From IMG/VR virus record IMGVR_UViG_3300044695_002636, positions 1-34,134 of that record: a DNA stretch of 34,134 nucleotides. The stretch is one strand, 5' to 3'. Below are positions 21,026 to 23,385 of the stretch, in pieces. The first letter of the stretch is position 1; each line of letters opens with the position of its first letter. The notes below the pieces were generated by a model. It searched no databases, was not told the DNA's origin, and worked only from the letters and a program-made list of their open reading frames with translations. This DNA comes from a virus. The translations under genes were made by a program, and so were the position numbers.

Positions 21026-21669
21026 TGTATGCCTTTATAATTAACCTCGATTTCTTTGATAGTGCTAAACCCTTTTGGATGTATCACTAACCGTTCGTTT
21101 GGCTTAATGCAAAGGTGCGATTTTTGATAGTCAATATAGTGTCCGTCAACTATTTTTTTAGGACACGAAAGCATTTCAATTAGATTATTGTACGCTCTCT
21201 TGTGTACGATGTACGCAAACGCTCCCCACGTTTGGTTTTGCTGTGTAAAGTATTGATTAAAATAAAAAGGGTTACGCCCAAACGAACCGCCTAAATAAAG
21301 TATATGCCAATCTTTTGGTAACTGGTTTAAATACTTTTCAAACTTAGGTTTAAAATCTTTTACGAAAGTTATATCATCTTCAAAAATAGCGATGCATTCA
21401 TAGCCTCTTTCTTTAGCTAGTTTAATAGCGTTTAAGTGGCTTTGAATACAAGCATATTCATTATTTGTTACACCTTGTATTGGTGAAACTATTTCCTTAC
21501 CATCAACGGCAATTAGTCTTTCGACTTGAAGGGTCTTCCCCTTTTCTTTGGCTGTGGAATAGAAACATCCTCTAGCCTCTTGTTTGGCACTAACGGTAAA
21601 TCGCTCTCGTCTGTCGACACTTCGTTCAAGGTTGATAAAGACGCTGGGAACTGGGATGTTGATAGGCTT
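21022..21669 (-). CDS. GT25-like glycosyltransferase reached by -1 frameshift or non-AUG start
   Basis: This frame, open from 21699 to its TGA at 21024-21022, has no ATG, GTG or TTG before its conserved domain. From the A9 run it reads KPINIPVPSVFINLERSVDR, matching the N-terminal strand of LPS glycosyltransferase family 25, then ERLIAVDGKEI, CIQSHLNAIKLAKERGYE and IFEDDI (nucleotide-sugar/metal site). The domain is about 215 aa, near full length for the family. It could be made as a 275-aa fusion with the 21513-21848 product by -1 slippage on A9 (21668-21676). Overlap with the portal start supports expression. It may add sugar to phage or host surface structures. Confidence 0.7.
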   Translation of the reverse strand, partial: KPINIPVPSVFINLERSVDRRERFTVSAKQEARGCFYSTAKEKGKTLQVERLIAVDGKEIVSPIQGVTNNEYACIQSHLNAIKLAKERGYECIAIFEDDITFVKDFKPKFEKYLNQLPKDWHILYLGGSFGRNPFYFNQYFTQQNQTWGAFAYIVHKRAYNNLIEMLSCPKKIVDGHYIDYQKSHLCIKPNERLVIHPKGFSTIKEIEVNYKGIQ

Positions 21670-21848
21670 TTTTTTTGACCCTTTTCTTCGCCCATAATGT
21701 CAAAGCAATGCGACTTGCCAAACTTACAGCATAAGTTGTAAAGTTCTTCGCTGATTTGCGTTTCTTTAGTGATAGAAACAATTTGCGTTCCTGCTCGGAA
21801 CACGATAGAACCAACGTCTTTTTTGAGTTTAAATTTTTGAGGTATCAT
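21513..21848 (-). CDS. Small portal-proximal protein ending KKRGRPFKSKD
   Basis: This 111-aa protein is the first gene after the promoter at 21868-21899. The N-terminal 60 residues are structured (IVFRAGTQIVSITKETQISEEL), and the C-terminal part is a linker rich in Ser/Pro ending in a basic, AT-hook-like KKRGRP. Small proteins with this kind of tail are common next to portal genes in Bacteroidota phages. From codon 60 on, its sequence overlaps the GT25-like frame for about 157 nt, both frames carrying recognisable content. It may therefore give two products: this one, and a slippage fusion. Confidence 0.65.
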   Translation of the reverse strand: MIPQKFKLKKDVGSIVFRAGTQIVSITKETQISEELYNLCCKFGKSHCFDIMGEEKGQKKSLSTSQFPASLSTLNEVSTDESDLPLVPNKRLEDVSIPQPKKRGRPFKSKD

Positions 21849-22737: not shown

Positions 22738-23385
22738 TTAATTGGTTTGGTTACGGTTAATTATTGCCCACTCTAGGCACTTATCAATTCGCTCGGTCTG
22801 CTTCACGTCTTTGCCATACTCACGACTATACCACGAATGAATGCCAATCGGTTTGTCATTGATGTTTATGACGGTGCTAATCCCATCTGTTGAAGTTATC
22901 TTGGTAAAGTTAGCGTGTTTGAAGTTCAAATGTAGCCAATAAAATAACCCTGCAAACGGTTCATCTACATTGCCATTCTTTTCACACTGGTTTGCGTACT
23001 CATAAACCTTTGAGTTGTCAAATTTTGACAACTTAGTTTTAATCATGTCCACGTTAAATACATTAAAAAACGGATTGACGTGGAAGAATGATTTCTCTCT
23101 GTGGCTAATCACTCCCTTATCGGGCACACCACAATACGCAAAGTCATTTCGTGTCATGTCAGCAATCACTTGGTCAATTAAGTCCTCATTGGTCACAAAG
23201 AAATCTTCGTCAGCGTTTACGATTATGCCGTTGTAGTTTTCAAGTATGTGAAGCAAGTAGGTAAGCGCACCATGAAATCCCGTGAACTGTTGCAACCTTA
23301 CGAAAGTATTGTCATCACGCCATAATGATTTTGATAGGCTGTAAAGTTTATCATTTGCGCTTCTGGTTATGATTGTTTTTTTCAT
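22738..23385 (-). CDS. Putative glycosyltransferase
   Basis: This 215-aa protein has the features of a GT-A type enzyme: an N-terminal strand (MKKTIITRSANDK), a central GIIVNADEDFFV (about 53-64) whose DED can serve as metal-binding acidic triad, and later a FNVDMI/KNGNVDEPFAGLF section resembling an acceptor region, ending with HSWYSREYG. No exact family is named. It lies in a run of surface-sugar genes between tube protein and portal, which supports the call. Confidence 0.6.
   Translation of the reverse strand: MKKTIITRSANDKLYSLSKSLWRDDNTFVRLQQFTGFHGALTYLLHILENYNGIIVNADEDFFVTNEDLIDQVIADMTRNDFAYCGVPDKGVISHREKSFFHVNPFFNVFNVDMIKTKLSKFDNSKVYEYANQCEKNGNVDEPFAGLFYWLHLNFKHANFTKITSTDGISTVININDKPIGIHSWYSREYGKDVKQTERIDKCLEWAIINRNQTN

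Follow-up and report, generated by a model that had tools for sequence, protein, structure and literature searches.

A start-less GT25-type glycosyltransferase apparently reached by a -1 shift at a conserved adenine run in uncultured phages

Introduction

Homopolymer recoding and the fusion of phage genes by a -1 shift are both already known. In dnaX of Thermus thermophilus, nine consecutive adenines on the coding strand give rise, through transcriptional slippage, to two products with a common N-terminus, of which the shifted one is the shorter (PMC1088944). Among bacterial secretion genes, slippage at homopolymers adds a C-terminal domain to the products of Shigella spa13 and mxiE and of Citrobacter tssM1, and tssM1 needs both of its products (PMC5009743, PMC4256274). 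The phage lambda tail chaperone gpG/gpGT is a case in which a -1 shift near the C-terminus fuses a second domain to the protein (PMC5009743). Finally, the methyltransferase gene of Campylobacter phage CPt10 is broken at a poly-A tract, an interruption that its authors proposed to be overcome by transcriptional slippage (PMC2853527).

The locus analysed here belongs to a family of uncultured bacterial viruses in which a sugar-transferring enzyme is apparently made only by a one-base slip.

Results

The window, by which we mean the whole stretch of DNA analysed, is a virus record of 34,134 bases, and its relatives were drawn from IMG/VR scans. ORF111 and the GT25-like frame lie among capsid genes and an adjoining glycosyltransferase family 7-like (GT7-like) gene (Table 1). 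A -1 shift after CAA AAA AAA and before AGC would join 60 residues of ORF111 to 215 residues of the GT25 frame, giving 275 aa, and the TGA that ends this frame overlaps the portal ATG at 21025-21023. The original prediction had placed the A9 run inside ORF111, with a GT25-like domain in the -1 frame preceded by no AUG, GUG or UUG, a stop codon overlapping the portal start, a 275-aa product if decoding shifted, and two frames, both looking real, that code together over about 157 nt. The window coordinates, the domain match and the start-codon scan confirm this layout; the doubly coding stretch after the run measures 152 nt in the window. On the far side of the GT7-like gene, a conserved 215-aa gene with a NADEDFF stretch (22738-23385, minus strand) was noticed that has no Pfam match; its product is possibly another sugar transferase.

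Table 1. Positions of the recoding locus, its neighbours and the other long-run junctions in the window
Feature	Position	Strand	Remarks
ORF111, zero frame, 111 aa	21848-21513	minus	contains A9; ends KKRGRPFKSKD
A9 slippery run	21676-21668	minus (T9 on plus)	zero frame CAA AAA AAA AGC; -1 frame AAA AAA AAG
GT25-like -1 frame, start-less	21699-21022	minus	open from after TGA 21702-21700 to TGA 21024-21022
Dual-coding stretch, 152 nt	21667-21516	minus	both frames open and conserved
Predicted 275-aa fusion, ORF111 residues 1-60 plus GT25	21848-21022	minus	sequence arithmetic
Portal protein, directly downstream	21025-19889	minus	PF04860, E 3.6e-11
Glycosyltransferase family 7-like gene, directly upstream	22473-21865	minus	PF02709, E 4.5e-25
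T10 (coding strand), tail-chaperone-like junction	903-894	minus	ORF 1301-855; -1 extension ending at 619
A9 at TerL -1 junction	2413-2405	minus	zero-frame lead from ATG 2445 into terminase large subunit

The -1 frame matches the Pfam GT25 family PF01755 over residues 15-149 (E 6.9e-12; 46.1 bits against a curated cutoff of 24) as well as PHROG glucosyltransferases (PHROG 2835 and 854), and profile searches align it to the solved procollagen galactosyltransferase 1 and Putative glycosyltransferase R655. Both the N-terminal INL.R..DRR motif and the EDD motif are present: D23 R24 R25 and E101 D102 D103 are invariant in 14 sequences and align to their counterparts in procollagen galactosyltransferase 1. 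The domain is predicted to be a sugar-transferring enzyme; its structure model (mean pLDDT 52) is too poor to be used as evidence on a GT-A type fold. Scanning the window -1 frame upstream of VFINLERS revealed no ATG, GTG or TTG, the first standard start codon of the frame lying 154 codons inside the domain, and the ORF scan of the window listed no ORF of at least 60 aa in this frame.

For ORF111 itself, AlphaFold2 gave a pLDDT of about 90 for residues 11-50 and about 55 beyond them. The protein is therefore modelled as a small folded domain of beta-alpha type, covering about the first 52 aa, and a basic tail that is probably disordered. A fold search with the N-terminal domain returned no interpretable match (best viral match E 0.016 with a TM score of about 0.3; best PDB match E 2.1).

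We extracted 22 junction sequences from many separate metagenome assemblies; they fall into four clades. Clade 1 (L002-L015) is near-identical to the window (GT25 96-100% and upstream ORF 92-100% identity). Identity to the window falls to 61-62% for GT25, 43-45% for the upstream ORF and 62-63% for the portal in clade 2 (L040/L041), to 59-61% for GT25 and 42% for the upstream ORF in clade 3 (L045-L049), and to 54-55%, 39% and 57% for GT25, upstream ORF and portal, respectively, in clade 4 (L058-L062). The layout is the same in 22 of 22: an upstream ORF of 107-113 aa, a run of A9 or A10, GT25 at -1, and a dual-coding overlap of 146-157 nt after the run. A stop in the -1 frame sits 0-34 nt upstream of every run; this stop is a TGA sharing its last base with the start of the run in clade 2, and is separated from the run by a single codon step in clade 4, where it is the codon just ahead. 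Since the codon phase of the run start (1 in clades 1 and 2, 0 in clade 3, 2 in clade 4) and the residues encoded there (QKKS, EKKN, KKKD/KKKS, LKKK) differ among clades, the feature being kept is the run with its offset and not a lysine motif. Clades with A9, such as that of the window, and with A10, such as L040/L041, share one offset, with neighbouring codons compensating. While the run itself is not improbable in an A+T-rich genome, its conserved position and frame offset are.

None of the 22 junctions carries a run length that fuses ORF111 and GT25 in frame, and in none of these relatives does GT25 form an independent ORF that begins with AUG. The sole standard start upstream of the domain in the whole set is a TTG 23 codons before INLERS in one clade 3 contig (L049). 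Remote GT25 homologues that were checked in other phages (26-27% identity) start with an ATG of their own and lack the run. The start-less fused form thus appears, as far as searched, to be peculiar to this phage group. Searches of reference prokaryote genomes gave no relatives of GT25 or the portal, and searches of annotated phages with ORF111 and the portal gave no match.

The upstream ORF retains its C-terminus, K.GRP.KSK, in all four clades, in agreement with a functional zero frame, and codon conservation in the overlap points in the same direction. Within clade 1, the share of identical codons at shared residues rises in the zero frame from 83.5% ahead of the run to 94.6% in the overlap, and in the -1 frame it is 95.2% in the overlap against 85.5% after it. 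When each clade is represented by a single sequence, codon identity in the -1 frame is 0.72 in the overlap versus 0.55 (permutation p = 0.005); the corresponding zero-frame values, 0.64 versus 0.56, do not differ significantly (p = 0.14), and this between-clade test would be insufficient alone. Dual coding of the overlap, with purifying selection on both frames, is supported by these codon statistics taken together.

A census of runs of at least nine, covering the window together with nine contigs related to it, revealed two further -1 junctions. At one of them, T9 or T10 is associated with the same -1 offset and a conserved extension in 10 of 10 genomes; a family search with the ORF matched no family, and we call it tail-chaperone-like from its position and resemblance. 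At the other, an A9 splits the terminase large subunit (TerL) of the window and of several relatives (L068-L074 and L076-L080 were compared): a short lead beginning MKSNPNFRFL, or a close variant of it, stands in one frame, and the remainder of the protein, VKSQRITLLQGGTRSGKS, continues at -1. L076, L078, L079 and L080 have the same TerL N-terminus in a single frame with no run. In the window, TerL might be initiated from the GTG at 2389, but most split relatives have ATA at this place.

Long runs were also seen in genes that show no change of frame. T10 occurs within apparently unshifted genes for small membrane-like proteins (L091 5591-5600 in G020; L093 1319-1328 in G017), and A9 at L092 3866-3874 (G020) lies in a long uninterrupted gene, which offers a natural control for slippage effects.

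The original prediction named only a -1 shift and did not distinguish ribosome from polymerase; transcriptional slippage would give the same product. We compared A/T runs in genes of three distant genomes with synonymous shuffles, leaving junction runs out. Runs of 7 nt occur as often as expected (50 observed, 50.5 expected) and those of 8 nt are slightly rarer (15 versus 21.1). Runs of at least nine are depleted (3 versus 11.2, sd 2.3), a count made with an imperfect filter that missed one GT25 junction in G003 and retained some antisense ORFs. This signal depends on excluding the junctions, because with junctions included the count is near expectation (9 versus 11.2), and an initial unfiltered tally of the long runs across all ORFs had shown no depletion (18 versus 20.7). 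A threshold near nine has been proposed as a signature of selection against transcriptional slippage (PMC1088944). The depletion of runs of at least nine at a normal frequency of 7-nt runs therefore favours slippage of RNA polymerase, without proving it; long-run depletion could also come from replication slippage.

The same recoding could be performed by the ribosome, through programmed -1 frameshifting at A_AAA_AAA, and this version, one form of the recoding explanation that does not compete with it, is the one to which we give the smaller though still appreciable weight. It is in line with a possible slippery heptamer A_AAA_AAA in the zero frame at every site and with the use of ribosomal frameshifting by phage tail-chaperone genes (PMC5009743). 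The shift among orthologues is always -1, at all junctions; a constant direction has been read as a sign of ribosomal frameshifting, and a direction varying among orthologues as an indicator of slippage, though not an obligatory one (PMC3711429). The constant direction may, on the other hand, have been frozen by the dual-coding overlap. Against the ribosome speak the runs of at least nine present in every clade although seven would suffice, and the fact that heptamers elsewhere in genes are not avoided while runs of at least nine are. No shared RNA structure was found downstream of the run (fold z-scores from -2.3 to +1.7), which also speaks against the ribosome, although a stimulatory structure is not obligatory for ribosomal -1 frameshifting. 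A sequence resembling a Shine-Dalgarno stimulator, AAGGG, stands ahead of the run in only some members of clade 1 and is not conserved. If the gene is recoded, we lean slightly towards slippage by RNA polymerase.

Discussion

We consider it highly probable that a single recoded gene at this locus gives rise to two products, the 111-aa protein and a GT25 fusion reached by a -1 shift at A9/A10. Most decoding would yield the 111-aa protein; in a fraction of events at the run the mRNA would gain one A, or the ribosome would slip back one base, after which the -1 frame would be read into a fusion of about 275 aa, with a 60-residue N-terminal part followed by the GT25-type glycosyltransferase. The enzyme would then presumably act in the late phase of infection, along with the GT7-like gene next to it. 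The central claim of the original prediction, that GT25 is reached by a -1 shift at A9, is supported by the comparison of related phages that it had proposed: frame layout and A run are conserved in 22 of 22 junctions, GT25 has no AUG of its own in any of them, and none is fused. The -1 junctions at T9/T10 in the tail-chaperone-like gene and at A9 in TerL, found in the same genomes, argue for recoding as well; the unshifted runs of 9-10 in some genes (for example at L092 3874) are a point against it. Production of the fusion, the ratio of the two products and the enzyme activity are what we infer from comparative sequence data.

Two alternatives to recoding had been raised with the original prediction, and both appear unlikely. 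GT25 might be translated alone from a non-AUG start just past the run, and indeed ATC or ATT stands nine codons before INLERS in clades 1, 2 and 4, and ATC at the I of INLERS in all; yet clade 3 has CTT or GTT at the former position, and no near-cognate codon except the ATC inside INLERS keeps its place across clades. Starting at that isoleucine would cut the first beta strand, the homology to solved GT25 enzymes beginning upstream, at query residue 11-13, and a non-AUG start leaves both the conserved run and the -1 offset unexplained, which makes this reading improbable. The other alternative, that assemblies under-count the homopolymer and the true genomes hold one long gene, draws on the fact that homopolymers are error-prone in principle. 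It can hardly hold, because A9 and A10 clades have the same offset across separate assemblies: 22 junctions from many metagenome assemblies agree, and the zero-frame C-terminus is itself conserved in four clades, so we regard it as extremely improbable.

Phase variation at the DNA level, in which run length changes in the population and switches the fusion on and off, would make use of poly-A tracts as a known device (PMC3711429). The fused state was, however, seen in none of the 22 contigs and in none of the 10 genomes at the tail-chaperone-like junction, and at the TerL junction such switching would leave an essential gene in the off state; this possibility is very improbable. The layout and offset kept in all 22 junctions, together with the raised codon conservation in the overlap, make under-counting, an ordinary start and phase variation all unlikely.

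On the recoding reading, the fusion would carry an enzyme in place of the basic, probably disordered tail, the N-terminal part of ORF111 being common to both products; this exchange follows from the predicted fold of that part and the predicted disorder of the tail. Targeting of the enzyme to the virion by this N-terminal part is a speculative idea, to which the fold searches with the domain lent no support. The sugar would presumably be added to an acceptor on the virion or the host surface, alongside the GT7-like gene, as gene position suggests. Whether several late genes, namely the tail-chaperone extension, TerL and the GT25 fusion, are all expressed through one shared mechanism of homopolymer slippage seems to us rather doubtful; if true, the infidelity of one RNA polymerase would determine in what proportions packaging, tail and glycosylation proteins are made. 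TerL provides a natural experiment here, with close relatives in one frame or split at A9, on how much slippage a phage tolerates.

The glycosyltransferase of this locus would be made solely as part of a recoded fusion, out of a 150-nt stretch coding in two frames, and standard gene finders overlook it if they insist on a start codon. In the literature searched, the coverage of which was partial, we found neither a phage glycosyltransferase made by a frameshift nor a start-less glycosyltransferase reached only via a long dual-coding overlap and accompanied by two other long-run junctions.

Among described systems, T. thermophilus dnaX is alike in its A9 on the coding strand and its two products sharing an N-terminus, whereas the shifted product here carries a whole enzyme domain from an overlapping frame. 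Addition of a C-terminal domain by homopolymer slippage is common to our locus and spa13, mxiE and tssM1; these are not phage genes, and the accessible portions of their reports describe no conserved two-frame overlap of 150 nt. The CPt10 methyltransferase is a single gene broken towards its distal end, for which the available sections describe no second conserved product and no conservation across clades. Phage GT25 proteins (PF01755; PHROG 2835, 854) share a homologous domain, the remote homologues checked being those with an ATG of their own. Lambda gpG/gpGT resembles the present case in the -1 shift that fuses a second domain near the C-terminus; here, by comparison, the fused partner is a sugar transferase, the run is at least nine nucleotides long, and the gene adjoins that for the portal.
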